Positions 15,449-63,061 of a stretch of DNA of 64,000 nucleotides are shown here, one piece after another (position 1 is the first letter of the stretch; each line of letters begins with the position of its first letter). Made by a program: the position numbers and the translations under genes. The notes under the pieces are model-generated. The model made no database searches. It was not told where the DNA came from and was given only the letters and a program-made list of their open reading frames with translations. The stretch is taken from positions 124,465,642 to 124,529,641 of the forward strand of contig OX578147.1 in the NCBI GenBank assembly GCA_951213105.1, written 5' to 3'. Source of the stretch: Amaurobius ferox. Its lineage: Eukaryota > Arthropoda > Arachnida > Araneae > Amaurobiidae.

Positions 15449-16935
15449 TCATGGCGGAAAAAGAAATCCCAACATCAAGAAGTAGTTGTGTTAGATAAAC
15501 GAAATTTGGGAGGCTCATTTGCACATATGAAAGATGACTCATTCAAATTTCGAGCTAGACGAACAAGAGTGGCGCTGGTAGCGCTACTATGATCATGCAA
15601 ATCACGTTTGCTTTAAATAACGTATGATGTAAACTTAATGTATGATGTAAACTTAACGTATGATGCAAACTAATAACGTATTGATGTAAACTTCGTGAGC
15701 GTTATTTATCTTCCAGACTGGGCGTTGTGAGCTAGGTTTGAGTCAAGAATGCTTTTAAGGAGACGAAGAAGGCAGTATCAGCAGCTTAGTGAGTTTGAAC
15801 GAGGCCGTATAATAGGGCTACGAGAAGGTGGATTTTCTTTCCGCGATATTGCAGAAAGACTTGGCAGGGATGTATCCACTGTGCATGATTGTTGGCAGCA
15901 GTGGTCACAGGAAGGCACTGTCTCAAGAAGACCGGGGTCTGGCCGCACACGGGCCACTGCTGAGAGGGAAGACCGCCGTATTCGCCTCATGGCTGTGGCG
16001 GATCGTACTGCATCTGCAGTAGCACATAGAGCTTTTGCTGGCCTCAGAGCGACACAACGAACTGTAAGAAATCGGTTACTTGAGGGACAGCTTCGAGCCA
16101 GACGGCCTGTAGCGTTCATACCACTAACTCCGAATTACCGCCATGTGCGACGTCAGTGGTATCAAGCTAGAGCTCATTGGAGGGCAGAGTGGAGATCTGT
16201 TGCATTCTCAGGAGAGAGCCGTTTCTCTCTTTGTGTCAGTGATAGTCGTATGTTGGTAAGAAGGAGGCCAGGTGAGCGCTTGGAAGCAAGCTGTCTGCGG
16301 CGTAGACACACTGAACCTACACCAGGAGTTAAGGTCTAGGGAGCCATTTCCTATGACAGCAGGAGTACTCTCGTCGTTATTCCATGCACCTTGACAACAA
16401 ATTTTTACATCAGACTGGTGATTGAACCGGTTGTGCTGCCATTCATGAGCAGTATTCAATAGGGTGTTTTCCAACAGGATCACGCTCGTCCTTATGCCGC
16501 TACTGTCACCCAAAGTGCTCTACATTGTGTCGACTTGTTGCCTTGGCCTGCAAGATCACCAAATCTTTCTCCCATCGAGCACGCATGGAACATTATTGGA
16601 TGACAAATCCAGCGTCATTCACAACCAGCATTAACAGTTGATGATTTGACTGACCAAGTGCAACAGACATGGATTTTCATTCCACAAAATAACATACGGC
16701 ACCTGTACGACACAATGCATGCACGTTTGCATGATTGCATTCAAAATCGTGGCGACAACTGCGGTTATTAATGTACCACCATTTCACATTTGAAATGGCT
16801 CTTCTCGCGCATACCTTAACCTGTGACCTTGAAACTTTAATCAAATAAATATGTTACTTACGCAATTGCTTTGCCTAAACTTCATTTCTCTAAACTAATT
16901 TCTTCTTGGTGTTGGGATTTTATTTTCCGTCAGTG
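15449..16935 (+). mobile_element. Tc1-like transposon (copy 1)
   Basis: The element is 1487 bp and is flanked by TA dinucleotides (15447-15448 and 16936-16937). Its imperfect terminal inverted repeats include the GGCGGAAAAAGAAATCCCAAC type on the left and the complement of GTTGGGATTTTATTTTCCGTC on the right. A single transposase pseudogene fills the interior. The second copy at 26954-28440 has the same length and flanks, so it arose through the block duplication and not by transposition. Confidence 0.9.
15749..16771 (+). pseudogene. Tc1-type transposase, inactivated
   Basis: A real ATG opens a 340-codon frame of the usual Tc1 length. Residues 1-110 hold the paired helix-turn-helix DNA-binding region (FRDIAERLGRDVSTVHDCW, then the GRPR-like SRRPGSGRTR linker). 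The catalytic part follows. The first catalytic Asp of the usual SDES motif is replaced (SGESRF, near residue 155). The QQD(H/N)ARP and SPNLSPIEH motifs with the second and third acidic residues are present further on. Three in-frame stops interrupt it, at about 16337, at the CAATAG near 16458, and at a TGA near 16600. No frameshift is needed to read through. The protein is therefore dead by both nonsense and catalytic mutation. Confidence 0.9.
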
Positions 16936-21494: not shown

Positions 21495-21833
21495 ATGAGC
21501 GAGGGATTCAAGAATGTCGAAGAAAATACCATCTTGTGTGTGGCGTCGCAAACAGCTCTGTGTGTAGGTCCTCTCCCAAAGAACGATAGAGATAATAAAC
21601 TCAGGTCTCAGAAGTTTCTTCCAAGACAACACTTGGAAGTTGTTGAATTGACAATTATAAAATATGAGTTAATTCCGCCACAGCAATGTAAGTTAGGACG
21701 AAATAAACAAATCCACCCAGGTAACAATCTCAAGCTTAGCTATAGTATTTATGACTTGGCTATCTCAAGCTTGACTATAGAATCTACGCATGGCTTTGTA
21801 TGGCTACAGTATTTATTACGAATCATGAACTAA
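21495..21833 (+). CDS. Hypothetical 112-codon ORF (block A' copy)
   Basis: This is the counterpart of the frame at 1438-1776, with identical length, start and stop. By eye about five of the 11 nucleotide differences alter an amino acid. No family is recognised, and it is offered only because the frame survives in both duplicates. Confidence 0.22.
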   Translation: MSEGFKNVEENTILCVASQTALCVGPLPKNDRDNKLRSQKFLPRQHLEVVELTIIKYELIPPQQCKLGRNKQIHPGNNLKLSYSIYDLAISSLTIESTHGFVWLQYLLRIMN

Positions 21834-23559
21834 AAGGTTCTATTCATGAACTCAGTTTTCTACTATTGGACTCAAGCTAATTTATCTATTTGTTCATTTA
21901 TATTGTGTGTTTATTGGTTTTCATATCAATTTGTTTCATATCAGTTGTTGATGTTTTAGTGGATTTTCTCATTAAACCCATAGTCCATTTTTGTATTGAA
22001 CCCTGGAGGCTTCAAAGCTGCAGGTAATTATTATTCATGTATTATATTTAGCCTGTAGATGCCAGCACCGTAGCAAAGATAATTATGTTTATTATCAGTC
22101 GGTGAATGTTAAGATCAGTGCTTCTTTCAAGCACACATCCAGGGGGAGGGGGGTCAAAGCCTCCCCGGAAAAGATTAGTCGTTCCTCGGAGGCATTTTAT
22201 GTTAACCTAGTTTCTATTTATGTGACGGTATTTAGATATATTTATATAGGACAAATAGAAAACGTGATCTCCCTAAAATTTCATTCGCCCCCCCCCCTCG
22301 GCCAAAAAGTCCTGAAAGAAACACTGGTTGAGGTTGTAATCGCGGTGGTAGTATCCACACGTGCTGCATTATTGAACAAAGGAAAAGTGTTCCATTAAAT
22401 TACTTATGCATACATATTATTTGAAATAAATATGTTCCACTGAGATTATGTGTTAATTTGTGTAGTTGTCATTCTACAGAAAGTAATAAATTAAATCCTT
22501 CTAAATTATATTTATTACTGAACACAGAATGTCTAAGACAAGAATGAATAGAACAAAAATGAAACAAATACTGACTAATCATTTACTCGATAAGTTCTTC
22601 CAAATTAGCATTCCACCATGACTTATACAACTTTGCACTGAAACCACATAGCTAACGGGCCATCTATCAAGCTCAAGGCCTGTTCAAGAAGTTGGGGGGG
22701 GAGTTAAGTCTAACTGTAATTTAATTTAAATGCCATTTGTCTTCGTCTTCTATCGACATTCTTTTTAAGTAAAACACACTCCATGGAAAATTGGAGCACT
22801 AAAGATGTTAGAATAAGATTATGTGCTGATATTTATCATTTTAACAAATCGTTGACTTGTACTAATCGTTGACGTTGTGTACTAACAAATCGTTGATTTG
22901 TTAGTAAGATTTAATATTCAAATTGTTAGAAAATAATATAAATTGATCTTACGATTTTTGCTTTCTGATACTACTGTATATAAAAAGTATTGTCTTCACA
23001 AATTTAAGATGTTGCTGGAGGATAAGTACGTTTGATGAATTCCTAAATCCATTTCAAAAGCTTTTAAAAGAACGTGTGTGACTGTAGACGTGTGTTTGTG
23101 CACACAAGAGTATGCGCATTGTGCACAAACGTGTGTATTATGTGTGTGACATTGTGCACATTTGTGTGTATTATGTGTGTGAGCACATAAGAGTATGTGC
23201 ATGTGTGTGCTCCATTGCACACAGAGTATAGAAATAATGAAAAAGAAATAGTTAAACGAATATTGTGATACGAATACGAAATCTCGAAAATGTACATATT
23301 GTTTTCACTTTGATAAATATTGCAAATTAAATTGAATTTTGAATACACAAGAAAGTCAAGAGGCCACACACTCTTCGGTTATTATAGCTGAATTTTTTCT
23401 TTAATCAACAATTTCATTAAATGAAAACAATCATGCTTTAAAAAACAATTTCTTCAAGTGCAAAGAATTTTTTCGTGCACTCCCAATGATCTGACGCACC
23501 AAAAAGTGTGCGCATCTATATTTGGCAGAAACGCTGATCTACATTATAAAATGCTCACA

Positions 23560-26953: not shown

Positions 26954-28440
26954 TCATGGCGGAAAAAGAAATCCCAACACCAAGAAGTAGTTGTGTTAGA
27001 TAAACGAAATTTGGGAGGCTCATTTGCACATATGAAAGATGACTCATTCAAATTTCGAGCTAGACGAACAAGAGTGGCGCTGGTAGCGCTACTATGATCA
27101 TGCAAATCACGTTTGCTTTAAATAACGTATGATGTAAACTTAATGTATGATGTAAACTTAACGTATGATGCAAACTAATAACGTATTGATGTAAACTTCG
27201 TGAGCGTTATTTATCTTCCAGACTGGGCGTTGTGAGCTAGGTTTGAGTCAAGAATGCTTTTAAGGAGACGAAGAAGGCAGTATCAGCAGCTTAGTGAGTT
27301 TGAACGAGGCCGTATAATAGGGCTACGAGAAGGTGGATTTTCTTTCCGCGATATTGCAGAAAGACTTGGCAGGGATGTATCCACTGTGCATGATTGTTGG
27401 CAGCAGTGGTCACAGGAAGGCACTGTCTCAAGAAGACCGGGGTCTGGCCGCACACGGGCCACTGCTGAGAGGGAAGACCGCCGTATTCGCCTCATGGCTG
27501 TGGCGGATCGTACTGCAACTGCAGCAGCAATTAGAGCTTTTGCTGGCCCCAGAGTGACACAACGAACTGTAAGAAATCGATTACTTGAGGGACAGCTTCG
27601 AGCCAGACGACCTGTAGCGTTCATACCACTATCTCCGAATTACCGCCATGTGCAACGTCAGTGGTGTTAAGCTAGAGCTCATTGGAGGGCAGAGTGGAGA
27701 TCTGTTGTATTCTCAGGTGAGAGCCGTTTCTCTCTTTGTGTCAGTGATAGTCATATGTTGGTAAGAAGGAGGCCAGGTGAGCGCTTGGAAGCAAGCTGTC
27801 TGCGGCGTAGACACACTGAACCTACACCAGGAGTTAAGGTCTAGGGAGTCATTTCCTATGACAGCAGGAGCACTCTCGTCGTTATTTCAAGCACCTTGAC
27901 AGCAAATTTTTACATCAGACTGGTGATTGAACCGGTTGTGCTGCCATTCATGAGCAGTATTCAATAGGGTGTTTTCCAACAGGATCACGCTCGTCCTTAT
28001 ACCGCTACTGTCACCCAAAGTGCTCTACATTGTGTCGACTTGTTGCCTTGGCCTGCAAGATCACCAAATCTTTCTTCCATCGAGCACGTATGGAACATTA
28101 CTGGATGACAAATCCAGCGTCATTCACAACCAGCATCAACAGTTGATGATTTGACTGACCAAGTGCAACAGACATGGAATTCCATTCCACAAAATAACAT
28201 ACGGCACCTGTACGACACAATGTATGCACGTTTGCATGATTGCATTCAAAATCGTGGCGACAACTGCGGTTATTAATGTACCACCATTTCACATTTGAAA
28301 TGGCTCTTCTCGCGCATACCTTAACCTGTGACCTTGAAACTTTAATCAAATAAATATGTTACTTACACAATTGCTTTGCCTAAACTTCATTTCTCTAAAC
28401 TAATTTCTTCTTGGTGTTGGGATTTTATTTTCCGTCAGTG
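26954..28440 (+). mobile_element. Tc1-like transposon (copy 2)
   Basis: This 1487-bp element is flanked by TA at 26952-26953 and 28441-28442. Its terminal repeats are the same as in the copy at 15449-16935. Confidence 0.9.
27254..28276 (+). pseudogene. Tc1-type transposase, inactivated (copy 2)
   Basis: The 1023-bp frame is the same as in copy 1, including the shared SGES change and the shared downstream stops. It has one extra stop: the CAA codon after the QRQW region has become TAA (27668-27670), ending the first open part after 138 codons. The shared lesions show that the element was already dead before the block was duplicated. Confidence 0.9.
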
Positions 28441-47105: not shown

Positions 47106-47281
47106 TAATTAAAATATGTTTTTCGATTCTACAGTTAACTTTTTAGTTCATTTCTCCTAATTTCTATAACGCAGTTGCTTAAAATATAAAAACCGAACAG
47201 CATAATGCTTGAAAAATATTCTTAATTACCCGCATCACAATACAGGCATTACGCTGCCTTCAATAATGCACCACCACTCAC

Positions 47282-47488
47282 CGCCAGCAGCTTATCTCCC
47301 ACTTGCAGTCTCCTGTCCACGTAGGCTGCTCCCCCTTCCATGACCTTCGTGATGTAGATCCCATCGTCGCCTGGAACGTGCTGATTGCCTACGCCTCCGG
47401 CTATGCTGAAGCCTAGGCCCTTGTTACCCTTTATGAGCTCAATTTCTAGAATCCTTTGGGGCTGGTGCATACGGATTCGCTTCACGAC
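47282..47488 (-). CDS. dlg1: dlg1 exon: first two thirds of PDZ2
   Basis: This minus-strand exon is 207 bp (69 codons, phase 0 at both ends). It lies between the acceptor ATTTCCTCCAG/GTCGTG (AG at 47490-47489) and the donor CTGGCG/GTGAGT (GT at 47281-47280). It encodes VVKRIRMHQ, then ILEIELIKG and the carboxylate-binding loop GLGFSIAGG (exon residues 24-32). [15 protein letters not shown] and EGGAA...[10 protein letters not shown] follow. This matches the second PDZ domain of discs large (DLG/PSD-95) proteins closely. DGRL is the usual form in these proteins, whereas this copy has DRRL. A 3.16-kb intron with a dead Tc1 element separates it from the exon at 43949-44120, and a 260-bp satellite begins about 110 bp upstream of the acceptor. 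Confidence 0.95.
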
Positions 47489-47598
47489 CTGGAGGAAATA
47501 ATGAGTTAAATAAATATTAAGAAAAGCAATTGAGCATGAAAATGTAATGTTATTTGAAGAATAGAAGAGGATCATTGCGCACATATACATTAGTTTCT

Positions 47599-50500
47599 AC
47601 GAAGTACTAGTAAGAGTTGTGGTATTTTAAAAATGTTTTCTGCAACTGGTGGTCGTAGAGGTCATATCCGGCCCGTGAATTAATTTCAATGGCCCGCAAA
47701 CCAGAGCCGTAACTAGAGACGAAACTCAAAAGGGGCTGGTGTGAAATTCAAGGGGGGGGGGGAATCAACAATCTTGAAGAAGGGGCTCACCAAAATAGTT
47801 AATCCTTAGCATTTATTAAATAGTTACTATTATATATTATACGAAGTACTAGTAAGAGTTGTGGTATTTTAAAAATGTTTTCTGCAACTGGTGGTCGTAG
47901 AGGACATATCCGGCCCGTGAATTAATTTCAATAGCCCGCAATTAATTTCAATGGCCGCAAACCAGAGCCGTAGCTAGAGACGAAACTCGAAAGGGGCTGG
48001 TGCGAAATTCAAGGGGGGGGGATCAACAATCTTGAAGAAGGGGCTCACCAAAATAGTTAATCCTTAGCATTTATTAAATAGTTACTATTATATATTATAC
48101 GAAGTACTAGTAAGAGTTGTGGTATTTTAAAAATGTTTTCTGCAACTGGTGGTTGTAGAGGACATATCCGGCCCGTGAATTAATTTCAATAGCCCGCAAT
48201 TAATTTCAATGGCCGCAAACCAGAGCCGTAGCTAGAGACGAAACTCAAAAGGGGCTGGTGTGAAATTCAAGGGGGGGGGGAATCAACAATCTTGAAGAAG
48301 GGGCTCACCAAAATAGTTAATCCTTAGCATTTATTAAATAGTTACTATTATATATTATACGAAGTACTAGTAAGAGTTGTGGTATTTTAAAAATGTTTTC
48401 TGCAACTGGTGGTCGTAGAGGACATATCCGGCCCGTGAATTAATTTCAATAGCCCGCAATTAATTTCAATGGCCGCAAACCAGAGCCGTAGCTAGAGACG
48501 AAACTCGAAAGGGGCTGGTGCGAAATTCAAGGGGGGGGGGATCAACAATCTTGAAGAAGGGGCTCACCAAAATAGTTAATCCTTAGCATTTATTAAATAG
48601 TTACTATTATATATTATACGAAGTACTAGTAAGAGTTGTGGTATTTTAAAAATGTTTTCTGCAACTGGTGGTCGTAGAGGACATATCCGGCCCGTGAATT
48701 AATTTCAATAGCCCGCAATTAATTTCAATGGCCGCAAACCAGAGCCGTAGCTAGAGACGAAACTCGAAAGGGGCTGGTGCGAAATTCTAGGGGGGGGGGA
48801 TCAACAATCTTGAAGAAGGGGCTCACCAAAATAGTTAATCCTTAGCATTTATTAAATAGTTACTATTATATATTATACGAAGTACTAGTAAGAGTTGTGG
48901 TATTTTAAAAATGTTTTCTGCAACTGGTGGTCGTAGAGGACATATCCGGCCCGTGAATTAATTTCAATAGCCCGCAATTAATTTCAATGGCCGCAAACCA
49001 GAGCCGTAGCTAGAGACGAAACTCGAAAGGGGCTGGTGCGAAATTCAAGGGGGGGGGATCAACAATCTTGAAGAAGGGGCTCACCAAAATAGTTAATCCT
49101 TAGCATTTATTAAATAGTTACTATTATATATTATACGAAGTACTAGTAAGAGTTGTGGTATTTTAAAAATGTTTTCTGCAACTGGTGGTCGTAGAGGACA
49201 TATCCGGCCCGTGAATTAATTTCAATAGCCCGCAATTAATTTCAATGGCCGCAAACCAGAGCCGTAGCTAGAGACGAAACTCGAAAGGGGCTGGTGCGAA
49301 ATTCAAGGGGGGGGGGATCAACAATCTTGAAGAAGGGGCTCACCAAAATAGTTAATCCTTAGCATTTATTAAATAGTTACTATTATATATTATACGAAGT
49401 ACTAGTAAGAGTTTATAAAATATTTTAAAAATGTTTTCTGCAACTGGTGGTCGTAGAGGACATATCCGGCCCGTGAATTAATTTCAATAGCCCGCAATTA
49501 ATTTCAATGGCCGCAAACCAGAGCCGTAGCTAGAGACGAAACTCAAAAGGGGCTGGTGTGAAATTCAAGGGGGGGGGGAATCAACAATCTTGAAGAAGGG
49601 GCTCACCAAAATAGTTAATCCTTAGCATTTATTAAATAGTTACTATTATATATTATACGAAGTACTAGTAAGAGTTGTGGTATTTTAAAAATGTTTTCTG
49701 CAACTGGTGGTCGTAGAGGACATATCCGGCCCGTGAATTAATTTCAATAGCCCGCAATTAATTTCAATGGCCGCAAACCAGAGCCGTAGCTAGAGACGAA
49801 ACTCGAAAGGGGCTGGTGCGAAATTCAAGGGGGGGGGATCAACAATCTTGAAGAAGGGGCTCACCAAAATAGTTAATCCTTAGCATTTATTAAATAGTTA
49901 CTATTATATATTATACGAAGTACTAGTAAGAGTTGTGGTATTTTAAAAATGTTTTCTGCAACTGGTGGTCGTAGAGGACATATCCGGCCCGTGAATTAAT
50001 TTCAATAGCCCGCAATTAATTTCAATGGCCGCAAACCAGAGCCGTAGCTAGAGACGAAACTCGAAAGGGGCTGGTGCGAAATTCAAGGGGGGGGGGATCA
50101 ACAATCTTGAAGAAGGGGTTCACCAAAATAGTTAATCCTTAGCATTTATTAAATAGTTACTATTATATATTATACGAAGTACTAGTAAGAGTTGTGGTAT
50201 TTTAAAAATGTTTTCTGCAACTGGTGGTCGTAGAGGACATATCCGGCCCGTGAATTAATTTCAATAGCCCGCAATTAATTTCAATGGCCGCAAACCAGAG
50301 CCGTAGCTAGAGACGAAACTCAAAAGGGGCTGGTGTGAAATTCAAGGGGGGGGGGGGAATCAACAATCTTGAAGAAGGGGCTCACCAAAATAGTTAATCC
50401 TTAGCATTTATTAAATAGTTACTATTATATATTATACGAAGTACTAGTAAGAGTTGTGGTATTTTAAAAATGTTTTCTGCAACTGGTGGTTGTAGAGGAC

Positions 50501-50690
50501 ATATCCGGCCCGTGAATTAATTTCAATGGCCCGCAATTAATTTCAATGGCCGCAAACCAGAGCCGTAGCTAGAGACGAAACTCAAAAGGGGCTGGTGCGA
50601 AATTCAAGGGGGGGGGGGTCAACAAACTTGAAAAAGGTGCTTACCAAAATAGTTAACCATTAGCATTTATTAAATAGTTACTATTATATA
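47599..50690. repeat. 260-bp satellite array, 12 units, with G-runs
   Basis: Units begin ACGAAGTACTAGTAAGAG at 47599, 47841, 48099, 48359, 48618, 48877, 49135, 49394, 49657, 49915, 50174 and 50436. Lengths are 242-263 bp, mostly 258-260, and identity is very high. Each unit carries AAGGGGCTGG and a run of roughly 8-13 G within about 20 bp. Two unit types can be told apart by CTCAAAAGGGGCTGGTGTG (A) and CTCGAAAGGGGCTGGTGCG (B). The order is A B A B B B B A B B A and a mixed last unit. The array lies in the dlg1 intron directly upstream of the PDZ2 exon. Confidence 0.96.
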
Positions 50691-52642
50691 TTTTAATCCT
50701 TATAAGTTATTAACAAATAATTGCATATTTATATTTGTAAGCTAAGAGTTGATTAGGAAAATTCATATAGCTACTATACATCAATATTAACATATAATAA
50801 TTACAATTAATTTTGATATAAGCATTAACTATTAGCAAAACTGTTAATTAACCGAAGAAAATTTCTGAAAGTTATTAAAAGTTAACGCTTAATATTAACT
50901 TTTAACTATTTATCAGTTGATTTTGACTCTAAAATGTATAACAGTGAAACCTGCAATAATGCAAAAGTATCCAAATACTATTGTCTTAATATTTAAATAT
51001 TTTTAAATTAAATATGTAAATAAATTGATCATCACTATCATTACAAATTCAGCTAAAATGTGTAAAATTTAAAACAAAGTAGCTTATAAAAATATATCAA
51101 AGAAACTTTTTATACAAAATTTGGGTGAAATGTCGGATGAAATTTCATAGCACTACAAAATATTTAATATTTTTATTACATCATTATATATATATTTTTT
51201 TCATATTTATACGTAAGGGGGCTTAGCCCCCTTTGGTCCCCTCCTTGGCTATGCCCTTGCCGCAAATCTTGAATACTCTTCATACATATATAGGTTACCA
51301 GAAACACTGGTGTTGCCCTTGGATGATGCTTAAATCAAACTAGCGAGGTACAAAATGTGAAATTTTGTTGCCATAGATCTGCTCATAATTAAGATTGACA
51401 AACCAATAGAAGAAAATGTAAAGTATGTTTCCGGTGTTGTGTGCGATTTTTTTACAGACAGACTCAAATATGTATTTCAATTCACTTTGTACCCTGAATA
51501 TATGTTAGGTAAAAAAATATAAATAAAAAAAAGCATTCTCTGAACAATAATTTTAATCATTTGGAGCAACGATGCCAATTTTGCGAAATATTTTTGTAAA
51601 ATTTGAAAAAGAAAAGGAAAAAGTTACTTAAAAATGGATCCTGGAATGCAGAAGTCCAGTTGAGCCACACTGTAGTTAATGTTTAGTATAATTTTATCTT
51701 TGCAGGAATTTGTTCAAGTACATTATTAAAGCATTTTTACTTTCTAATACTATGCAATATAGTATATAGAATGCATTGTTTTCACAAAAATGTTTAGTAT
51801 AATGTTATCTTAGAAATTTTTAATTTATTCTTAAAAATTCATTCTTAAGAAATTGCTTGGTAGATGTTTGATATTTTGTCTACGATAGATTATTTATATT
51901 TATTCTTAAAATTTTTTAGTATAATGTTATCTTTGCAGGTTTTTGTTCAAATGCATTATTAAAACAATTTTACTTTCTAATACTATGTAATATAGTATAG
52001 AACGTATTGTTTTCACGAACATTTTTGAATTCGAGACTTTGATGCCAATATATGTTTTAGGACCTCCTGAACACGTTTTGACTATTTTCGGAGTGATGTT
52101 TGCCTGTCGATTTCTCGTGTGTGCGATAGCTGCCACAAATATTAATGGATTTTCACAAAACTTTATATTCCGCTTTGTTATTAAAACTCTAGAATTAGAT
52201 AGAATATTTTTAACTCGAACGAACACTTCGACTATATATATTTTTTAACATGGCGGCATAGGATAAAATTTGACATACCCATGCATAAAAGGGTTTATTT
52301 ATGGCTCAATGATAACAAGATTTAAGAGTTTCAATCGCTCTTGTGAAAAATAGCGACGATACATATATTTTTTTGTTCGTAACATCATTAGCCCTCTTGG
52401 GGGGGGGGGGGGAGTTACGCCGCGGAGGGTACATTGTCAAGTATGGTATCAATCGAAAAATTGTAAGCCCTTTAAAGTGAAGGGTGAGACGCTATAGTTG
52501 TAATTATTTGGAGTAACGATATCAATTTTTCAAAAATTTTCTTGTAAATTTTGGAAAAAAAAAATTCTGGTATGAGAAAGTCGAGCTGAACCACACTTCA
52601 GTTAATTCTATTATATATCATAGCGATTGAATGAAAATAAAT
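50691..52642. other. Probable dlg1 intron with repeat ends, no gene seen
   Basis: The stretch holds a perfect-arm hairpin (AAGGGGGCT T AGCCCCCTT, 51215-51233) inside GGGGCTTAGCCCCCTTTGG, a typical transposon-end sequence. Two copies of a ~140-bp repeat follow (about 51541-51685 and 52480-52605, each with AACGAT, CAATTTT and CCACACT.CAGTTAAT). Homologues of this repeat lie near 63446-63600 and 6205-6310. A run of 14 G is at 52399-52412. The frames around 51927-52248 are short and unrecognised. Confidence 0.5.
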
Positions 52643-53596
52643 CTGATGTGGACAACCCATGACTTTTCTTATATAATGCAATGAATTTACTACTTTTACA
52701 GTAAAAAAAATAGGGTTTTCTTATAGTAGATACTTATATTCTTTACATGATATTGAATTTTCGACAATTAGTCGTCATTTTCATTGATTGAGCGTCATTT
52801 TAATCCATTTGGCGAGATTTTCGTTAATTTGACAACATTTCAAAAAGTCGCCAAGTTGGCGACATTCCGCCAAATTCGTCGCCAAGCTTTACTGATGGAG
52901 AAATAAGTTATTCTTATAGCAGATAAATGACTATTGGCGTTCAAATACAATATTACTCAAAGTATCTTCTTTCCTGAATGGAACGATCTAGTTCCACGAG
53001 AATGATATTGTTGGGTTGCTTTAGTATTTAGGTAATTTGGAGATTTGAAAATTTACTTTTATTTCTTTTTCCCTGGCTCAATATTCTTAATTTGGTAATA
53101 TTTAAATAATATTTATTGGCTTTTCATTTATTCTTTAATTAGAATATTTTTAATCATCTAAATTAATTTTCTTTATAATATTCTTAGTTAAAAATGTTCC
53201 ATTCCTTAAATTAATATTACTTTTGATTTGTAAATTTTAAAAATTATTTATTTATTTGATTCCCCTTAAAATTCCCTTTAATTTGATGTCTCATTTTCCC
53301 ATTTTGGTTAGAAATTCCGTTTGTTCTACAGTTTCAAGTTATTTCCATGTCTCACTGCAATTCAAAAATTTCAGTTGCGGCCATTTTCGGAATTTTGTTT
53401 CGCGGGCCCTTTACTGCGATTAAGCCGCCACCTAAGCGTTTTTCGCGCCTCTTTAGAATTCGGGATTTTTTTTAATTGGTTCGCGTTTTTACGGATCGTC
53501 TGCTCTCGGAATTATGAGTATTATTTTGGCAATTCTAATTTCGGTAAGCGAATTTTAATTGCTGCCGTTTATCTAAACTCGCCCTTTTGCCGCAAG

Positions 53597-53625
53597 TATA
53601 AATACGCGCGTAGAACTTTTCAGTT
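53597..53625 (+). promoter_or_regulatory. LTR core promoter: TATA box and initiator
   Basis: TATAAATA lies at 53597-53604. The arthropod-type initiator TCAGTT starts at 53620, with its A at 53622, 25 nt from the first T of the TATA box. The same pair recurs in the 3' LTR at about 61764-61790. Confidence 0.7.
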
Positions 53626-54436
53626 TGAGTTTTTTGTTGAAATCCTTCGTTGTGCGTTAGCGCGAGAAGCGCGTTGTTTTTTTTTCGAATGGAACTTATG
53701 TTCCACGCGAGTTTTTTTAATGGAACGTTAAGTTCCTCGCGTTATTCTTTTTTTTCATTAGTTGTTTTAATTTAAATTATGCATTTTTCAAGCTTTTTCG
53801 CGTAATTCGCGACGTAACTCTCCAGAAAAGTGTATGGTGAAATTCCTTTTGCGAGTTATGTGAATGAAGCGTCTGACGATGACGTCCGAGTTTTGAGAAA
53901 ATCCTAGCGTTCCAGATGTGGTTGTTAGGCCTCTGCTGATGTTTTTCAAAAGTGCTGAATCCTTTCCTGACTAAAGTTTGTTGAGATCCTGATCCCAAGA
54001 AAACCAGTTTTTTCCAAAATCTGTGCTGCTCCAATGATTGGAACTTTCCCCCTTGTCTGGCGGCCCATCCGGGTGAATACTGATGTTTTATTTAAACCCT
54101 TAATTTCTTTAATTCTGAATATGATTTCTCAATATTTTTGAAATGCATTTAACTAAAATTTATTCTGTAAAATTAAAATTCTAAACTTCATTCTGAGAGC
54201 AAATTTCTAAACCTTCATAATTTTTAAGAGCCTGGGTTAAATTCTAAAATTCTTTAAATTTAATATTTTGTTAATGATTTTTGATGAAATTTAAATAGAT
54301 TGTTTTGAGTAAAGTTTTTATGCTAATTCCTTAATTTTAACTAAGTTGATAAAATTCTAAAATTCTAATGTTAATTCTTTCTGAGTTGCCTGCCTGTGAG
54401 CAATGTTTTTGTATTTGTTAATTTGAAGTACAATTT

Positions 54437-54442
54437 AATAAA
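54437..54442 (+). terminator. LTR polyadenylation signal
   Basis: AATAAA lies about 57 nt before the LTR end. The copy in the 3' LTR, at about 62605, would serve the genomic transcript. Confidence 0.6.
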
Positions 54443-54506
54443 CTAATTTTCTTAAAACTAAATATTATGTCTTCATTTATCTATCTGTTAAACACAACAG
54501 TAGTTT

Positions 54507-54522
54507 TGGTGCCGTGTACCAG
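54507..54522 (+). other. Primer-binding site, tRNA-His type
   Basis: TGGTGCCGTGTACCAG starts 7 nt after the LTR. Its first 10 bases complement the 3' end CACGGCACCA of eukaryotic tRNA-His, whose acceptor stem starts GCCGUGA. With one bulged T the match continues through ACCAG in the insect form of that tRNA. The tRNA sequence is recalled and was not looked up. Confidence 0.65.
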
Positions 54523-54589: not shown

Positions 54590-56032
54590 ATGGATGATAT
54601 TAGAGAAAGTAACTGTATGTATGTTTCTGTATTTGGGTCAGATGAAACTGGAGATGGCTCTAAAGATAAGCCTTTTGAAACTTTATTATATGCTATGTTC
54701 TTTGTTGGTAAAGAGCCATTTCCTTCATTTCTTACAAATTCAAATGATGGTAAAGATTGGGATTTAATTCCCAGAAGTCAGGTTGCTAGTACCAAGAAAA
54801 CTTGGTTATCCTTATTGGAAAGAAATTTACCTTCTAAAATAAACATTGAGGCAACCTCTGATAATGTAAATTCTGTTGGTAACAAAAATATTGATTCAAA
54901 TGTTAATAGTAAACAATATGACTCAAATGAACAGGGATTAAAAATAGATTCTTCTAAATGTAATGTAATGAGTAATTTTAAAACAGTCTCTTCAATAGGA
55001 GACTTTTTAGATTCAATCCCAGTATTTTCAGGAGAGGAATCTGGCCTCCCATTGGAGGATTACATAGATAGAATTAAAATGTTAGCTGACCATGCAAATT
55101 GGTCAGAGTCAGACAAGGTCTTAGTTTTAAAGTTAAAACTGTCAGGCATAGCTGCAAGATTTATTAGAGATAATCCTAAGTTAAAAGAAGAGAAATCTTT
55201 CTCTCAAATTCTTAAAGCTTTACGCGACAGATTTTCCTCAATAGAATGTTTACACAGTAACTTGAGAGCATTTCTGCAGAGTTATCAGAGACCAAATGAA
55301 TCTGTGCGTCAGTTTGCTGCTAGAGTTGAGGCTTCCTCATACAAAACTGTTTCACCTGGCTTACTAAATGACAGAGTGGCAAACCAGCAAAGACTTGATG
55401 TCTTGTGCTCGGTTTTCATTGAAGGCTTGAAGCCTCATTTCAAACGGCTAATCCTACCTCAAAACCACAAGAGTTTTGACTCTGCAAAAAGGCATGCTGT
55501 GGCGGAGGAAGAGGTGTGGAGCAAGCAACATGGGGATGATCCCCAATATGTTATGAGTCTTGGAGAGTCTGAAAATAAGCAGCTCCATGATGAGCTTAAG
55601 AGAAATAAAATGGAGGTAGAGAACCTCACTAAAAGGCTTGCTGAGTTGCAAACTCAGATTAACACCAAACCACAGCTGCCTCAAACTAGAGTGACAAAGG
55701 ATAGCCGAAGGTGTTTTTCATGTGGTCTATTAGGTCACATAAGTGTGGATTGTAGGAAATTTCCTCAATCACACAGGTTCAACAGAAATTCTGGGTCTCT
55801 GCCTACTCGAATGTATCAACAACCTTTTTCTTTTCCACAACCTACACAAAACTATCCATATGGTTTTCCACAACAAATGCAAGGATTTCAACAACCTACT
55901 CAATTTTTTTACCATCAGCCAAATCAAAACTTTCAGCCTGACATTAATGAAACTAAACCTAAAATGAGTTACAACACTTTTTATACACCTAGGAGTGATA
56001 AAAATGACAGTGAAAAACAGAATTTAAACTAA
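54590..56032 (+). CDS. gag: Gag with an N-terminal AsnRS-like domain
   Basis: This intact 480-residue frame starts at the first ATG after the primer site. Residues 8-75 look like the N-terminal appended domain of eukaryotic cytosolic asparaginyl-tRNA synthetase: YVS (11-13), GSDETGDG (16-23), KDKPF (25-29), VGKEPFP (39-45), a Trp at 57, SQ (63-64) and a KKTW end (69-72). A variable Asn/Ser-rich linker follows to about 125. Residues 130-300 are a typical Gypsy capsid region with ALRDRFS and RQFAARVEA motifs. A predicted coiled coil (about 325-355) precedes a single CCHC zinc knuckle (CFSCGLLGHISVDC, about 375-388). The last 90 residues are rich in Gln, Pro and Phe. Gag builds the particle and packages RNA. 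The stop at 56030 directly follows a slippery heptamer, so Gag-Pol would be made by -1 frameshifting. Confidence 0.95.
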   Translation: MDDIRESNCMYVSVFGSDETGDGSKDKPFETLLYAMFFVGKEPFPSFLTNSNDGKDWDLIPRSQVASTKKTWLSLLERNLPSKINIEATSDNVNSVGNKNIDSNVNSKQYDSNEQGLKIDSSKCNVMSNFKTVSSIGDFLDSIPVFSGEESGLPLEDYIDRIKMLADHANWSESDKVLVLKLKLSGIAARFIRDNPKLKEEKSFSQILKALRDRFSSIECLHSNLRAFLQSYQRPNESVRQFAARVEASSYKTVSPGLLNDRVANQQRLDVLCSVFIEGLKPHFKRLILPQNHKSFDSAKRHAVAEEEVWSKQHGDDPQYVMSLGESENKQLHDELKRNKMEVENLTKRLAELQTQINTKPQLPQTRVTKDSRRCFSCGLLGHISVDCRKFPQSHRFNRNSGSLPTRMYQQPFSFPQPTQNYPYGFPQQMQGFQQPTQFFYHQPNQNFQPDINETKPKMSYNTFYTPRSDKNDSEKQNLN

Positions 56033-59000
56033 GTAAGGGTGAAGGGAGTTTTCACTCCAACTTACCTTCTGAAGCCCTTGGGGTGTTACCTGTGGTGCAA
56101 AATTCAAATTTGATTTCATTACGGAATTTGTCTCTACCAGTGATTTCTGGTATGATAAATAATGTTGATATTCCTATACTTATTGATTCTGGTGCTTCTA
56201 TTAATGTGTTGTTTACAAATGTATTATCTCATTTAAATATACCTGACAGTCAATTAACAAAGTGTAATATAAATTTAAAGGGCATCTCTAGTGATATTAT
56301 AAAAGTTTCCAGGAAATTAAATATTAATTTACATTTAAATAACAAAATATTTAATGTTGATTTTTATATTATGGACTGTGATTCTTGTAATTATTCAGCA
56401 ATACTTGGTGTGAAATTTTTAAAGGGTTATAAGATGTCAATAGATTTTAGTAATAATGTTTTATACAATAATATTGTAACTGTGCCTTTTGCAATTAAGG
56501 ATGAATCTGTACCATTTTTATTATCTGATACAACTCAATTCTTTAATAATTATGAAATTAACAGAGAAAATACTTTGAATTCTGAAAAATATAGGGATAA
56601 TTTGTGCTATGCACTTAGGAAATACACAATTCCTCCTCTATCGGAGGCTTTCATACAAGTAAAATTAAAAGAGATTGTTAAATTTAATTCACCTACTGTG
56701 ATGATTGAGCCTTTAAACAACAGTAAAATTCTGGTCGCTAGATCAGTAAATAATGTATCTAGATCTAATATATATAATGTAAAAGTATTGAATTTGTCAA
56801 CTGATGAGTTGCACATAAATAAGCATTCAAATTTAGCAAAAATTGCTCCTATCACAGTAGTATCTTCTTTTTCAGTTAACAATATTACTGAGTCAAGTGC
56901 AGAGAGTGGTGATAATTTTGATGTTTGGGGAGGAAATTTTGATCTTTCACACTTAGACTATAATGAAAAAAGACAAATAGAGAGTTTAATTAATGATTAT
57001 AAACATATTTTTGCTAATTCTATTCCAGATTTAAAGGGGTGTGATACAGTTTTTCATAACATTAACTTAAAAGATGATATTCCTGTTAAACAAAAACCTT
57101 ATAGAGTTCCTTATCATGTAAGAGATGAATTAGATAGACAAATTAATGAGCTTCTTGAAAATGACATTATACAAGAAAGTGATTCACCATTCTCCGCACC
57201 TGTACTGTTTGTTAAAAAGGCAGATGGAACATTAAGATTAGTAACAGATTTTAGAAAATTAAATGATAAAACTATTGATGATATTTTTCCACTGCCAAAT
57301 ATCACTGAATTGATTGATAGTTTAAATGGTGCGAAATATTTTTCTACATTAGACTTAACATCAGGATTTTATCAAATGAAATTGCACCCAGACGACACAC
57401 ACAAATGTGGCTTTTCTACACCTTTTGGCCACTATGAATGGAAAAGAGTCCCTTTCGGTTTGAAAAATGCCCCCAGCTCCTTTCAACGACTTATGTCCAT
57501 CGTCCTAGCTAAGCTTTCCCCTTTACAAATTTCTATTTACATAGATGATATTGTTATTGCATCTAGAACCTTTGAGGAACACTTAATGAAATTAAAGGTA
57601 GTATTTGATAGATTAGCTCAACATAAATTATGTTTAAAGCCAAGTAAATGCAATTTTTTTAAATCTTCAATAAATTATTTGGGTTTTCAAGTTTCTGAAG
57701 GTATTGTCCAGCCTGACCCCTCAAATTTAAAAACTGTTAAAAATTTTCAAATACCCACCTCTAAAAAACAAATTCGCCAATTTTTAGGATTAACTGGCTT
57801 CTACAGAAAATTTATTGAAAATTACTCCTTAAAAGCTCTTCCCTTAACTAATTTAACTAAGCAAAATATTAAATTCTCTTGGACCCCTGAAGCAGAAAAT
57901 TCTTATCAAACCTTAAAATCCGAATTACTTAAAGAACCCATTTTACATCTCCCTGATTTTTCAAAACCGTTTTCGGTATGTACCGATGCATCAAATTTTG
58001 CTCTAGGAGCAGTTCTCTGTCAAGAAGGAAAGGATGGATTTTTGCACCCTATTGCTTATGCTAGTAAAAAACTAAAAGATGCAGAAATAAACTATAGCAC
58101 AGTCGAGAAAGAGACTTTAGGAGTTGTCTGGGCAACATCCTATTTTAAGCAATACCTTTTGGGAAAACATTTTACTGTTTATTGTGATCAGGCCTCCCTT
58201 TCAAATGTTTTAAAATTAAAAGACCCCACTTCTAGGATAGCACGATGGATAATGTCCATGACCCAGTTTAATTACAAAATTATTCATAAACCTGGTCGCC
58301 TAAATTTAACAGCTGATTATCTATCTAGATGTGTAAATAATGTAAACGTAAACACTATAGACTTGGATGTTGATACAAACCTTCTTTTAAGAGTACGTAA
58401 TTCTCAAAATTCTGACCCTAATTGTATAAGAATTGGCTCATGCTTAGATAAAAATATTGACCCATTCCCTAAAAATTTAATGTTTTTCTTAAAAGATGAT
58501 GTATTATATTGTACTAATAGGAAACCTAAATTAAAATATCAAAGAAAAGAGCGTATTGTTGTTCCACAAAATTTGATCTCTGATATTCTAAATTATTGTC
58601 ATGATTCGATCACTGCAGGACATGGTGGTTTTAGAAGGACTTTGAGGAAAATTCAGCAACACTTTTATTGGCCTAGGATGTATGTTCAAATTTTAAATTA
58701 TGTTAAGAGTTGTCCTGATTGTTTACAGAAAAGAGGATTTAAACAAAAACAAAAAGCTCCTTTACAGAGGTTTCCAAATTCTACTTACCCTATGGAAAGA
58801 ATAGCTATGGATTGTATTGGCCCCATGCCTCTAACTTACTCTGGCAATAAGTACATACTGGTAATTACAGACTATTTTACTCGTTGGCCAGAAGCTTATG
58901 CTATCCCCAATATTAAATCTGAAACTATTTTAAATTGTTTAGAAAACTTCTTTTCTCTTCATGGTGTGCCAAAACACATTATCACTGACAAAGGATCTAA

Positions 59001-59742
59001 TTTCATTTCGAATGCTGCCATGAAGTTGTATGAAAAATTAGGTATTGAAAAACATACCACTACTAGCTATCACCCACAATCGGATGGAGTCTGCGAGCGT
59101 TTAAACAGTAAAATAATTAACACACTTAGTCATTTAGTGTCTGAAACACAAGAGGATTGGGATCGACATTTATCTTTTGCCTTGCTGGCCCACCGAACTT
59201 CAATCCATTCCTCGACTGGTGAGTCTCCAGCTAATCTTCTCTATGGTAGAGAATTAATTTTGCCACATCATCTTCTTTTTAATTTAAATGAACAAAATTT
59301 TACCACTGTTAGTGATTATAGTCAGGATTTGGCAATTCGTATGAAAAAATCTTTTGAAATAGTGAAGAAGAACTTACTTAAAGCAGCTAAAACACAAGAG
59401 ACATACAGAAATAAGTCTGCTGTTATAAAAGATATAAAAGTTGGAGATTTAGTATATTTATACATTCCTGTTTTTCCAAGGGGACATTGTAAGAAACTCT
59501 CCAAACTTAATAAAGGTCCTTTTAAAGTTATACAAAAAACATCTAATGTAAACTTTAAAATTCAACATGTAAATGACACACGAAATATTCAGTTGGTGCA
59601 CATTGACAGATTAACAAAAATTCCAGAAAGAGATTCTGTGTTCTTTTCTTGTGCACAATCTGATAATTCAGCAAGTAATACATCTCATGAGAATGATATA
59701 ATTCCAACACAAAGATATAATTTACGACAAAGGAAAAACTAG
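56014..59742 (+). CDS. pol: Pol polyprotein (PR-RT-RH-INT)
   Basis: The frame is open from 56014, in the -1 frame relative to gag and overlapping its end, so pol has no start codon of its own that need be used. Counting residues from 56083: the aspartic protease motif IDSGA has its Asp at 35. Reverse transcriptase has its first Asp at 424 (TLDLTSGF) and YIDD at 486-489. RNase H has its first Asp at 635 (CTDAS). Integrase has an HHCC zinc region from His 840 and catalytic residues Asp 910, Asp 969 and Glu 1005, giving D,D(35)E. A GPF motif lies near 1143, and no chromodomain follows. All catalytic residues are present and no stop or frameshift is seen, so the enzyme set looks functional. Confidence 0.97.
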   Translation, partial: KTEFKLSKGEGSFHSNLPSEALGVLPVVQNSNLISLRNLSLPVISGMINNVDIPILIDSGASINVLFTNVLSHLNIPDSQLTKCNINLKGISSDIIKVSRKLNINLHLNNKIFNVDFYIMDCDSCNYSAILGVKFLKGYKMSIDFSNNVLYNNIVTVPFAIKDESVPFLLSDTTQFFNNYEINRENTLNSEKYRDNLCYALRKYTIPPLSEAFIQVKLKEIVKFNSPTVMIEPLNNSKILVARSVNNVSRSNIYNVKVLNLSTDELHINKHSNLAKIAPITVVSSFSVNNITESSAESGDNFDVWGGNFDLSHLDYNEKRQIESLINDYKHIFANSIPDLKGCDTVFHNINLKDDIPVKQKPYRVPYHVRDELDRQINELLENDIIQESDSPFSAPVLFVKKADGTLRLVTDFRKLNDKTIDDIFPLPNITELIDSLNGAKYFSTLDLTSGFYQMKLHPDDTHKCGFSTPFGHYEWKRVPFGLKNAPSSFQRLMSIVLAKLSPLQISIYIDDIVIASRTFEEHLMKLKVVFDRLAQHKLCLKPSKCNFFKSSINYLGFQVSEGIVQPDPSNLKTVKNFQIPTSKKQIRQFLGLTGFYRKFIENYSLKALPLTNLTKQNIKFSWTPEAENSYQTLKSELLKEPILHLPDFSKPFSVCTDASNFALGAVLCQEGKDGFLHPIAYASKKLKDAEINYSTVEKETLGVVWATSYFKQYLLGKHFTVYCDQASLSNVLKLKDPTSRIARWIMSMTQFNYKIIHKPGRLNLTADYLSRCVNNVNVNTIDLDVDTNLLLRVRNSQNSDPNCIRIGSCLDKNIDPFPKNLMFFLKDDVLYCTNRKPKLKYQRKERIVVPQNLISDILNYCHDSITAGHGGFRRTLRKIQQHFYWPRMYVQILNYVKSCPDCLQKRGFKQKQKAPLQRFPNSTYPMERIAMDCIGPMPLTYSGNKYILVITDYFTRWPEAYAIPNIKSETILNCLENFFSLHGVPKHIITDKGSNFISNAAMKLYEKLGIEKHTTTSYHPQSDGVCERLNSKIINTLSHLVSETQEDWDRHLSFALLAHRTSIHSSTGESPANLLYGRELILPHHLLFNLNEQNFTTVSDYSQDLAIRMKKSFEIVKKNLLKAAKTQETYRNKSAVIKDIKVGDLVYLYIPVFPRGHCKKLSKLNKGPFKVIQKTSNVNFKIQHVNDTRNIQLVHIDRLTKIPERDSVFFSCAQSDNSASNTSHENDIIPTQRYNLRQRKN
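56023..56065 (+). promoter_or_regulatory. -1 ribosomal frameshift signal between gag and pol
   Basis: The heptamer T TTA AAC (56023-56029), in the gag frame, immediately precedes the gag TAA. After a 7-nt spacer, GGGTGAA (56037-56043) can pair with TTCACTC (56051-56057), with one G-U pair and a 7-nt loop. GTAA (56033-56036) and TTAC (56062-56065) could extend the stem. Slippage by -1 here enters the pol frame. Confidence 0.85.
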
Positions 59743-60175
59743 AATGACATTTTTTTTTATTTTATTGTTGCGCAACATAATTTTTTTTAAGTGTATAATT
59801 TTTATATGTGTGTATTTGTTATTGATACATTGCAGAATGCTGCAAACTGGATTTAATTGATGTTGATTTAAGATAAAATTTGTTGCTATTGATATTGCAG
59901 ATTACTGCAGGATTTAGAGAATGATTGAGAAAAGATTAATTTGGATTATATGAATTGATTATATTTATATTGATAGAGATATATAGTTACTTATTTATTG
60001 TTATTGAGAGTGCAGATTTATGCAAATATTTGATTAGGTGGTCCATGACGTAAGTTCTGATCACATATGTTGATATTTTTTGGTATATATTTGTTGTCGT
60101 TAAAAGTATTAGAGTTCTGCAAAGATAAAAGTGGCAGTGTATATTAGATAACTGCAGATGCAGATGATGTTATGT

Positions 60176-60557
60176 TGTTGTTGAGACCCAGACCGTCCGA
60201 CCTACCAGAAAGGTGTAAGGTAACTGTATGGACGGCCGGGAAGTGCCACCCAATTTAGACCGGAACCCAGTGGGGGAGGCATCCACAGGGACCGTACCCT
60301 CCTTCCCCTACCACCAACCTCTCGGAAGGACTTACGGACCCACATGTTTAACGTGATCGTACTCCGCATGAACACGGCGGCATTTGTGGTAGCGTGCAAA
60401 TCTAGCGCGCAAACCACGGGGATACCGCACCCGAGATGGCCAACAGCACGCGGTGTTCCGAGGTGGTCACCCACCAAGTACTATCCGCGCCCGATGCTGC
60501 TTGACTTCGGTGATCTAACGAGAACCGGTGTTTTCAGCACGGTACGGCCGTTGGCCT
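60176..60557 (-). mobile_element. 5S-rRNA-derived SINE inside the Gypsy element
   Basis: On the minus strand the element starts at 60557 with a 5S rRNA-like head (to about 60439) and continues into a body. It ends in a (CAA)n tail at 60176-60186. Target duplications CAGATGATGTTATGT are perfect over 15 bp (60161-60175 and 60558-60572). The body from about 60367 to 60183 is homologous to the body of the tRNA-headed SINE at 8553-8864. This structure fits the SINE3 class, transcribed by RNA polymerase III from the internal 5S promoter. It lies in Gypsy sequence between pol and the 3' LTR, so it inserted after that element. Confidence 0.9.
60439..60555 (-). pseudogene. 5S rRNA-like SINE head
   Basis: The minus strand begins GCCAACGGCCGTACC and includes CCGGTTCTCGTTAGATCACC, AAGCAGCATCGGGCGCGG, TAGTACTTGGTGGGTGACC and GGAACACCGCGTGCTGTTGGC. 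This follows animal 5S rRNA from end to end over 117 nt with scattered changes. The internal control region is well kept. It is a SINE promoter, and no functional rRNA gene is implied. Confidence 0.9.
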
Positions 60558-61161
60558 CAGATGATGTTATGTGTAGTTCTGAATGGACATGAATAGATAC
60601 TTGTGTCTTTGAAATTTTAGTATATTATTGTTACTTATTGATAATAATTGTTATTGTGTCAATTGTCATTTGACACTTCTATTGAAATTTTATTTATTTT
60701 ATACAACTTATGTACATTGTTTTATTTTTTTAGATCACTCTATTTACACATTTTTTTTTTCTCTTTCCAACTGGTATTTATATTTTGTAGTGGAAGTGAG
60801 AGTTGTTTCTCATTGGTTATTCAAGGTACCTTTTCAAAATTCAATGTTTCGATTCTTTGAAAACTATTTGGCTGGTCCAATGTTTTCTTAAAAATTTATT
60901 TTTATTTATAGCTAATGAGAATCAATGTCAAATCCTCTACCTTTACTTTTGTCTACACAAATTTAGTGATCTGATGTACAAAAATTTATTCACTGTTATA
61001 TAATTATTGTTTTAGTTTATAGTTTGTTAACAAATTGCTTATTCCGAAATAGAGGTTGAATTCGGATAAAAATTGTTATACTTAAATTGGTAACTTCTGA
61101 TAGATATTTTATTTTATTATCAAAAATTTTTCATTTTTCAAATGAAAAATTTTTGGGGGAT

Positions 61162-61175
61162 AGGTGGAAGGAATG
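61162..61175 (+). other. Polypurine tract
   Basis: The purine-rich AGGTGGAAGGAATG directly abuts the 3' LTR. It is the expected primer site for plus-strand synthesis. Confidence 0.75.
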
Positions 61176-62667
61176 TGTTGGGTTGCTTTAGTATTTAGGT
61201 AATTTGGAGATTTGAAAATTTACTTTTATTTCTTTTTCCCTGGCTCAATATTCTTAATTTGGTAATATTTAAATAATATTTATTGGCTTTTCATTTATTC
61301 TTTAATTAGAATATTTTTAATCATCTAAATTAATTTTCTTTATAATATTCTTAGTTAAAAATGTTCCATTCCTTAAATTAATATTACTTTTGATTTGTAA
61401 ATTTTAAAAATTATTTATTTATTTGATTCCCCTTAAAATTCCCTTTAATTTGATGTCTCATTTTCCCATTTTGGTTAGAAATTCCGTTTGTTCTACAGTT
61501 TCAAGTTATTTCCATGTCTCACTGCAATTCAAAAATTTCAGTTGCGGCCATTTTCGGAATTTTGTTTCGCGGGCCCTTTACTGCGATTAAGCCGCCACCT
61601 AAGCGTTTTTCGCGCCTCTTTAGAATTCGGGATTTTTTTTAATTGGTTCGCGTTTTTACGGATCGTCTGCTCTCGGAATTATGAGTATTATTTTGGCAAT
61701 TCTAATTTCGGTAAGCGAATTTTAATTGCTGCCGTTTATCTAAACTCGCCCTTTTGCCGCAAGTATAAATACGCGCGTAGAACTTTTCAGTTTGAGTTTT
61801 TTGTTGAAATCCTTCGTTGTGCGTTAGCGCGAGAAGCGCGTTGTTTTTTTTTTCGAATGGAACTTATGTTCCACGCGAGTTTTTTTAATGGAACGTTAAG
61901 TTCCTCGCGTTATTCTTTTTTTTCATTAGTTGTTTTAATTTAAATTATGCATTTTTCAAGCTTTTTCGCGTAATTCGCGACGTAACTCTCCAGAAAAGTG
62001 TATGGTGAAATTCCTTTTGCGAGTTATGTGAATGAAGCGTCTGACGATGACGTCCGAGTTTTGAGAAAATCCTAGCGTTCCAGATGTGGTTGTTAGGCCT
62101 CTGCTGATGTTTTTCAAAAGTGCTGAATCCTTTCCTGACTAAAGTTTGTTGAGATCCTGATCCCAAGAAAACCAGTTTTTTCCAAAATCTGTGCTGCTCC
62201 AATGATTGGAACTTTCCCCCTTGTCTGGCGGCCCATCCGGGTGAATACTGATGTTTTATTTAAACCCTTAATTTCTTTAATTCTGAATATGATTTCTCAA
62301 TATTTTTGAAATGCATTTAACTAAAATTTATTCTGTAAAATTAAAATTCTAAACTTCATTCTGATAGCAAATTTCTAAACCTTCATAATTTTTAAGAGCC
62401 TGGGTTAAATTCTAAAATTCTTTAAATTTAATATTTTGTTAATGATTTTTGATGAAATTTAAATAGATTGTTTTGAGTAAAGTTTTTATGCTAATTCCTT
62501 AATTTTAACTAAGTTGATAAAATTCTAAAATTCTAATGTTAATTCTTTCTGAGTTGCCTGCCTGTGAGCAGTGTTTTTGTATTTGTTAATTTGAAGTACA
62601 ATTTAATAAACTAATTTTCTTAAAACTAAATATTATGTCTTCATTTATCTATCTGTTAAACACAACA
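61176..62667 (+). repeat. 3' LTR
   Basis: The LTR is 1492 bp with the same borders as the 5' LTR. Differences seen are G/T (at 54197 in the 5' copy), A/G (at 54403) and one extra T in the run before CGAATGG. It is followed by the target duplication ATAT. Confidence 0.95.
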
Positions 62668-63061
62668 ATATCACCCAATTTATCGCATGGTATTACATAG
62701 GAAAAGTGATCATGTTTCTCAATAGGAAATATTTTTTTTTTATATGACTTTTTGATAATTTTTTTGAAAAATGTGCAATATCTCGAGAACGGTTCATGAT
62801 AGCGTTCTTAAATTTATGTTAATAGTTTTCTAATGAAACATTACATAAGAAATGTCTATTTGCGTAACTTTATTAGCGGTTTTAATTTTTTGTCGATTTT
62901 TTCAAAATTTCACTCGAAAATTTAGGGGGATTCTGAACATTCGATTACGTTTAAAAACAATAGGCTTCCAGTGTTTACGGATTGTGATTTTTGTACCAAA
63001 TTTCGTTCAAATCGGTCCATTCGTTCGTCAGTTATCGTCTCCACAGACTCACTGACATACC

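Follow-up and report, generated by a model that had tools for sequence, protein, structure and literature searches.

How does the Gag protein of a retrotransposon come to begin like a piece of a tRNA synthetase? The question is raised by a stretch of 64,000 nucleotides from the spider Amaurobius ferox (contig OX578147.1, positions 124,465,642 to 124,529,641; henceforth referred to as 'the window', in whose numbering all unprefixed positions are given), which contains a Ty3/gypsy element bounded by long terminal repeats (LTRs). Its Gag open reading frame (ORF; 54590..56032, plus strand) is translated into 480 amino acids and opens with MDDIRESNCMYVSVFGSDETGDGSKDKPFETLLYAMFFVGKEPFPS...W...SQ..STKKTW. 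A reading of the letters alone (henceforth 'the sequence-only reading') had noted that these motifs follow the order and spacing of the N-terminal appended domain of eukaryotic cytosolic asparaginyl-tRNA synthetase (AsnRS), and had placed the likeness at 54590-54815. Both the likeness and its coordinates held up on profile and structure-database searches, the matched stretch proper being Gag residues 10-73.

Homology of the Gag N-terminus to AsnRS

The Pfam profile of the AsnRS domain (AsnRS_N, PF20917) matched Gag residues 24-78 with 34.6 bits (E 2.5e-8), above its curated cut-off of 27. The homology is partial, since Gag covers positions 1-55 of the 91 in the profile; the full profile with its lysine-rich C-terminal half was not matched, and the continuation of the helix was unrecognisable in the Pfam scan. 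Using phmmer against PDB sequences, Gag residues 11-72 matched human AsnRS (4zya) at E 2.3e-14, followed by 8tc8 (E 6.1e-13) and two more AsnRS N-domains (E 0.0081 and 0.022); the other four of the eight rows were non-AsnRS entries, all at E >1. When the search was made with a 21-row profile, consisting of the window Gag and 20 fetched copies selected for diversity and a stop-free stretch, the match to 4zya improved to E 3.6e-17 and the four AsnRS entries stood on top, the next row having an E of 0.057. Each of the 21 rows, scanned singly, matched PF20917 at E <= 0.01, and GKEPFP, the following Trp, SQ and KK.W, which are also present in human and host AsnRS, were unchanged in all of them.

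In control scans, which were read at E up to 1, PF20917 matched none of eight shuffled versions of Gag residues 1-80 and neither of two related Gags, and three further related N-terminal pieces matched no Pfam family at all. The Pfam scan detected no class II catalytic domain in Gag or Pol and no anticodon-binding domain in Gag, and the single NCBIfam match to Gag lay far under its cut-off. Because the Pfam and phmmer matches are significant and neither shuffles nor related Gags gave one, we accept the homology: Gag residues 10-73 (54617-54808, the aligned core of a domain that we delimit by Pfam, phmmer and host alignment as residues 1-80, 54590..54829, plus strand) represent the UNE-N or AsnRS_N domain of a eukaryotic AsnRS, and its capture is almost certainly real. 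Chance or convergent resemblance would have to account for the 4zya E value and a curated Pfam match, for AsnRS entries ranking first by profile and for a match in 21 of 21 rows and in no shuffle; we regard it as next to impossible and have ruled it out.

What other Gags have in this place was examined in related gypsy elements of the same genome, for which 14 upstream stretches of other gypsy capsid matches were fetched (L112-L114 and L119-L129). An N-terminus was readable in 11 of them, L114, L128 and L129 having no readable gag start, and by eye these fall into about three families, nine belonging to one. All 11 N-termini are short and basic, with 11-13 K/R and 0-2 D/E in approximately the first 60 residues before the capsid, and are probably disordered. 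None has AsnRS-like motifs by eye, and none of the five that were scanned matches AsnRS_N. The pre-capsid part of the window Gag, with 142 residues, has 15 basic and 21 acidic ones. Either a basic tail was replaced by the domain or the domain was added to another type of N-terminus, the relatives being too distant to tell (capsid identity to the window Gag is 37% for L112 and 35% for L113).

The element, its copies and the presumed host AsnRS gene

The element is an intact, very young member of Ty3/gypsy. It lies between target-site duplications of the sequence ATAT (53005..53008 and 62668..62671) and has, on the plus strand, a 5' LTR of 1491 bp (TGTTG...CAACA, 53009..54499) and a 3' LTR with the same ends (61176..62667). 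Two substitutions and a one-base indel separate the two LTRs, in agreement with the youth ascribed to it in the sequence-only reading. Between them, again on the plus strand, are the primer-binding site (54507..54522), gag, a pol open frame in -1 relative to gag (56014..59742) for protease, reverse transcriptase (RT), RNase H and integrase, and a purine-rich stretch seen by eye before the 3' LTR, presumed to be the polypurine tract (61154..61173). Within Gag, the AsnRS domain is followed by a fast-evolving linker at the place where the lysine-rich helix of AsnRS would go on (residues 81-140, 54830..55009), a capsid of the PNMA or Retrotrans_gag type (residues 141-300, 55010..55489) and a CCHC zinc knuckle (residues 374-390, 55709..55759). 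The earlier description of capsid and knuckle as ordinary is broadly right: PNMA was matched above its cut-off (E 4.8e-8), whereas Retrotrans_gag (E 0.002) and zf-CCHC (E 0.0017; 18.8 bits, cut-off 20.8) were matched below theirs. Abutting the gag stop, TTTAAAC (56023..56029) is a candidate -1 frameshift site. This heptamer is no more frequent in the window than in shuffles and the stem-loop 3' of it is no more stable than in shuffles (z-score -0.67), and for these reasons we grade a -1 frameshift between gag and pol only as likely. Scans of viral contigs with the whole Gag, the N-domain and the RT found no relatives.

Between pol and the 3' LTR lies a 5S rRNA-like stretch on the minus strand (60438-60555, 101.8 bits) with a GC-rich companion, in a region (60161-60572) bounded by a 15-bp duplication, CAGATGATGTTATGT. 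All three further copies that were inspected lack it, although one has diverged at this position, and it looks like a 5S-derived short interspersed element that jumped into the window copy or its recent source.

The search of the 3.56-Gb genome with Gag residues 1-100 gave 442 candidates, and all of the 150 that were scored match at 95-100% identity, one with an internal stop. The Gag domain is present in at least 150 copies, most of them in long open frames; the fused domain being common to so many places, an assembly artefact is ruled out. The gag frame has 480 or 481 codons in 63 of 70 fetched copies (that of the window included). Diverged copies, with 69-90% identity to the window domain, are still recognisable: this was so for all 31 copies fetched by profile, two of which have a stop inside the domain. 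With 150 of 403 candidates scored in the genome search by the AsnRS_N profile, and 150 of 2024 in that by the gypsy capsid, further element families with the domain may exist. A pattern including the primer site occurred 391 times at <=2 mismatches, compared to 15 times in the reversed control, and not every occurrence is an element. In three places gag-domain copies stand in tandem at an even spacing of ~7.8 kb (C19:62637349-62661000, C10:105485823-105501666 and C9:122008546-122024461), as expected of elements sharing LTRs after recombination. The LTR spacing of the window copy is 8167 bp, and its excess over ~7.8 kb nearly equals the length of the 5S insertion.

The top AsnRS_N match among the 150 scored candidates is not an element: it is an exon at C24:62263792 (68.2 bits), in a locus that we take for the host AsnRS gene. 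Here this exon (62263792-62263974) is preceded by two others that complete the domain (C24:62254398-62254477 and 62259576-62259641). The introns between the three, 5098 and 4150 nt long, are in phase 0 and run from GT to AG; the first coding exon is outside the exons read. Downstream on the same strand, class II synthetase catalytic matches follow in profile order at 62288662, 62294255 and 62312191 (spanning C24:62288662 to 62312307), the second of them with one stop in the matched frame. Both host exon joins are crossed by Gag without interruption, the two introns being absent, and the similarity between Gag and host ends within the third exon, not at an exon boundary. Because Gag is unbroken over both joins and similarity ends inside exon 3, capture very probably went through a spliced AsnRS mRNA. 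By the route that we propose, a Ty3/gypsy element would have taken the 5' part of such an mRNA long ago, likely by template switching onto a co-packaged transcript, and the captured piece is now the N-terminal domain of Gag.

That the capture is old is indicated by the amount of divergence. Gag and host AsnRS are identical at 33 of 64 positions, Gag and human AsnRS at 28 of 57, and host and human AsnRS at 36 of 63; the segment before GSD is one residue shorter in Gag and host than in human. Similarity to host AsnRS was scored for 100 of 101 copies (that of the window included), the one left out not covering residues 1-74. In the 35 rows listed of these 100, identities to host AsnRS were 31-35, over 64 positions in 34 of the 35. 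With growing divergence of the copies this score drops a little (Spearman 0.44 between score and identity to the window copy, uncorrected for relatedness), and the expectation that older copies would be nearer to host AsnRS was not borne out. Since Gag is only 33/64 identical to the host and young copies resemble host AsnRS no less than diverged ones do, we infer that the capture well predates the present copies.

Apparent constraint on the domain and its candidate roles

Selection over genomic copies, an estimate that the sequence-only reading had called for, was assessed in two sets, both chosen through the AsnRS_N domain itself. The ratio of nonsynonymous to synonymous polymorphism (pN/pS) was determined from 57 distinct intact gags, 7 of the 70 copies having been dropped because the frame ends at a codon other than 480 or 481. 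Residues 1-80 and residues 301-370 both had a pN/pS of 0.18, the capsid one of 0.27, the C-terminus one of 0.49 and the linker one of 0.58. The mean pairwise ratio of nonsynonymous to synonymous divergence (dN/dS) was determined from 10 intact gags of several subfamilies, namely the window copy and 9 of 12 others (L073, L103 and L075 were dropped for early stops), and was 0.34 for residues 1-80, 1.21 for the linker, 0.12 for the capsid, 0.24 for residues 301-370 and 0.58 for the C-terminus, the pooled C-terminal value being raised by the diverged C-terminal end of L091. It appears that the domain is under constraint, to a greater degree than the linker and to a lesser degree than the capsid. 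If current use is taken to mean that frames are intact and that copies look constrained, the claim that the domain is in current use is borne out.

The primer-binding site, TGGTGCCGTGTACCAG, pairs with a host tRNA-like 3' end, ...CTGGTCACGGCA plus CCA, over 10 nt and then over 5 nt past one extra base. This end is repeated in the host genome and is probably that of tRNA-His. Three of four tRNA-Asn genes that were read end in CCGGGGGCG and one in CCGGGGGC then T; of the site expected from tRNA-Asn, ...CCGGGGGCG-CCA, six of the first seven positions fit the element and no further ones. As another tRNA fits better, tRNA-Asn was excluded as the primer. The search for a full-length tRNA complement of the primer site returned the 391 places at <=2 mismatches, the first listed with 1 mismatch, and most of the 100 listed were the element. 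A separate observation concerns tRNA-Asn, genes for which, or copies thereof, are strongly amplified in this genome: an arm pattern occurred 579 times at <=3 mismatches and never in the reversed control, all four arm-pattern loci fetched were called tRNA-Asn by ARAGORN, and clusters lie at C2:55963495-56028491, where spacing is often ~270-340 bp, and C20:75862213-75907247.

What the AsnRS domain does in the enzyme is described differently in the literature. It may help anchor the enzyme on tRNA and is called eukaryote-specific in PMC12513289; in PMC7424529 its function is given as unknown, with no direct role in charging expected, and it is called mammalian-specific, a label that the host AsnRS exons in this arthropod genome would contradict. 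In Gag, residues 1-80 are net acidic (9 K/R and 13 D/E), and a stretch of 15 residues beginning with the SQ motif contains two K/R compared to five in host AsnRS. Because the domain is net acidic, its lysine stretch is reduced and the primer-binding site is not that of tRNA-Asn, we tentatively favour, at a little under even confidence, a protein-interaction role at the matrix position, shared with a partner of AsnRS or imitating one. The presumably folded, net-acidic domain would act there as a protein-protein module. It would serve as a scaffold of the particle, or else tether Gag to a host partner of AsnRS or to the translation machinery, and binding RNA or tRNA would not be its main job. 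Taken together with the old mRNA capture, this is the best overall explanation that we can offer, and we give it an even chance of being right.

Several points weigh against this explanation. AlphaFold2 models of the domain, whether made from the domain alone or from the 21-row alignment, were weak (mean predicted local distance difference test score, pLDDT, <50), and a fold search with one of these low-pLDDT models gave nothing at E <0.001, the 50 rows listed being free of AsnRS entries. The absence of the introns could also be explained by a donor gene without them. Old copies are not uniformly farther from AsnRS, the score against human AsnRS being higher the more a copy has diverged (Spearman -0.48 between score and identity to the window copy, uncorrected for relatedness), which would fit a more AsnRS-like ancestor. 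The domain is under weaker constraint than the capsid (dN/dS 0.34 vs 0.12), and the choice of copies through the domain biases its nonsynonymous change downwards.

The sequence-only reading had suggested that the domain could serve primer tRNA or RNA packaging. Such a module, helping to pick the primer tRNA or to package genomic RNA, could point to KK.W, kept in all 21 aligned rows, but the stretch is net acidic, its lysines are fewer from SQ onward, basic tails sit instead in the related Gags that were read, and the primer site fits ...CTGGTCACGGCA-CCA rather than tRNA-Asn; the suggestion finds no support in the residues or the primer site, and we consider it improbable. Mimicry is a more serious candidate, although still an unlikely one: the domain would imitate host AsnRS and bind one of its partners, and in this way Gag would enter a compartment or evade a restriction factor. 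Persistence of GKEPFP...W..SQ..KK.W despite otherwise large divergence is in keeping with this, but the same residues could be held by structural constraint alone. Partners of AsnRS do exist, since in PMC7014954 Drosophila AsnRS is described to bind Salvador, the binding part being unmapped, and human UNE-N is reported to engage CCR3; these cases show only that AsnRS can have protein partners.

It is also conceivable, if doubtful, that Gag places itself in the host synthetase or translation machinery by means of the AsnRS domain, which would then be a self-carried adapter between capsid assembly and the translation apparatus. Finally, the domain could be a by-product of the capture, tolerated as a soluble spacer without specific function. 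Constraint weaker than in the capsid, and inflated in appearance by the selection of copies through the domain, would suit such a hitchhiker; a dN/dS far below that of the adjoining linker would not, nor would a domain recognisable in 31 of 31 profile-fetched copies, two with a stop, even though these were found via the domain itself, and we hold this to be improbable.

Neighbouring features and comparison with known systems

Elsewhere in the window, positions 48012-50695 hold a tandem array of ten copies of a ~260-bp repeat, nine of them >=91% identical to the reference copy and one 70%, with an 87-nt subrepeat that starts with a run of G. A minus-strand ORF at 47249-47590 resembles a PDZ domain of a discs-large-type protein, and introns of the gene for such a protein may include the window. 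Two pairs of ORFs, at 1438 and 21495 and at 2983 and 23064 (window 1438-3288 and 21495-23369), are near duplicates with a common offset of ~20.1 kb, which suggests a duplicated block. Two further near-identical ORFs, one of them shorter (15749-16339 and 27254-27670), have an offset unlike that of the block and presumably encode a Tc1/mariner-like transposase.

Uptake of host mRNA by retroelements is already known. In crocodilian endogenous retroviruses, according to PMC4299795, host mRNAs (KIT-ligand and nectin3) were taken up and kept as reading frames; uptake of KIT-ligand cost the virus no domain, whereas nectin3 came at the expense of env. Here, one domain has been joined in frame to the start of a gypsy Gag. 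For a tRNA-synthetase accessory domain in this position, no description was found among the titles and abstract openings listed from one open-licence library. The family, a large one with both old and very young copies, is a clear example of a Gag whose N-terminus came from the cell. The role of UNE-N is still unsettled for the human enzyme (PMC7424529), and the element provides a natural separation of UNE-N from its enzyme, in which the residues conserved in Gag show what the domain is capable of without tRNA charging.

Compared with UNE-N of eukaryotic cytosolic AsnRS, the Gag domain shares homology over residues 10-73, motif order, near-equal spacing and an N-terminal place; it differs in being joined to a capsid, in having no recognisable lysine-rich continuation and in lacking any detected catalytic or anticodon-binding domain. 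Compared with Ty3/gypsy elements (Metaviridae), the element shares LTRs with TG...CA ends, a 4-bp target-site duplication, a Gag of capsid and CCHC knuckle and the order protease, RT, RNase H and integrase, and differs in that eleven related Gags of this genome have a basic tail in the domain's place. In HIV-1, too, Gag is linked to a tRNA synthetase of class IIb: host LysRS, a protein of its own, is brought in for the tRNA that it charges. In the spider element, by contrast, the synthetase part is encoded inside Gag and a different tRNA appears to act as primer. If the adapter reading were true, the element itself would encode what retroviruses obtain when they recruit a synthetase of the host.
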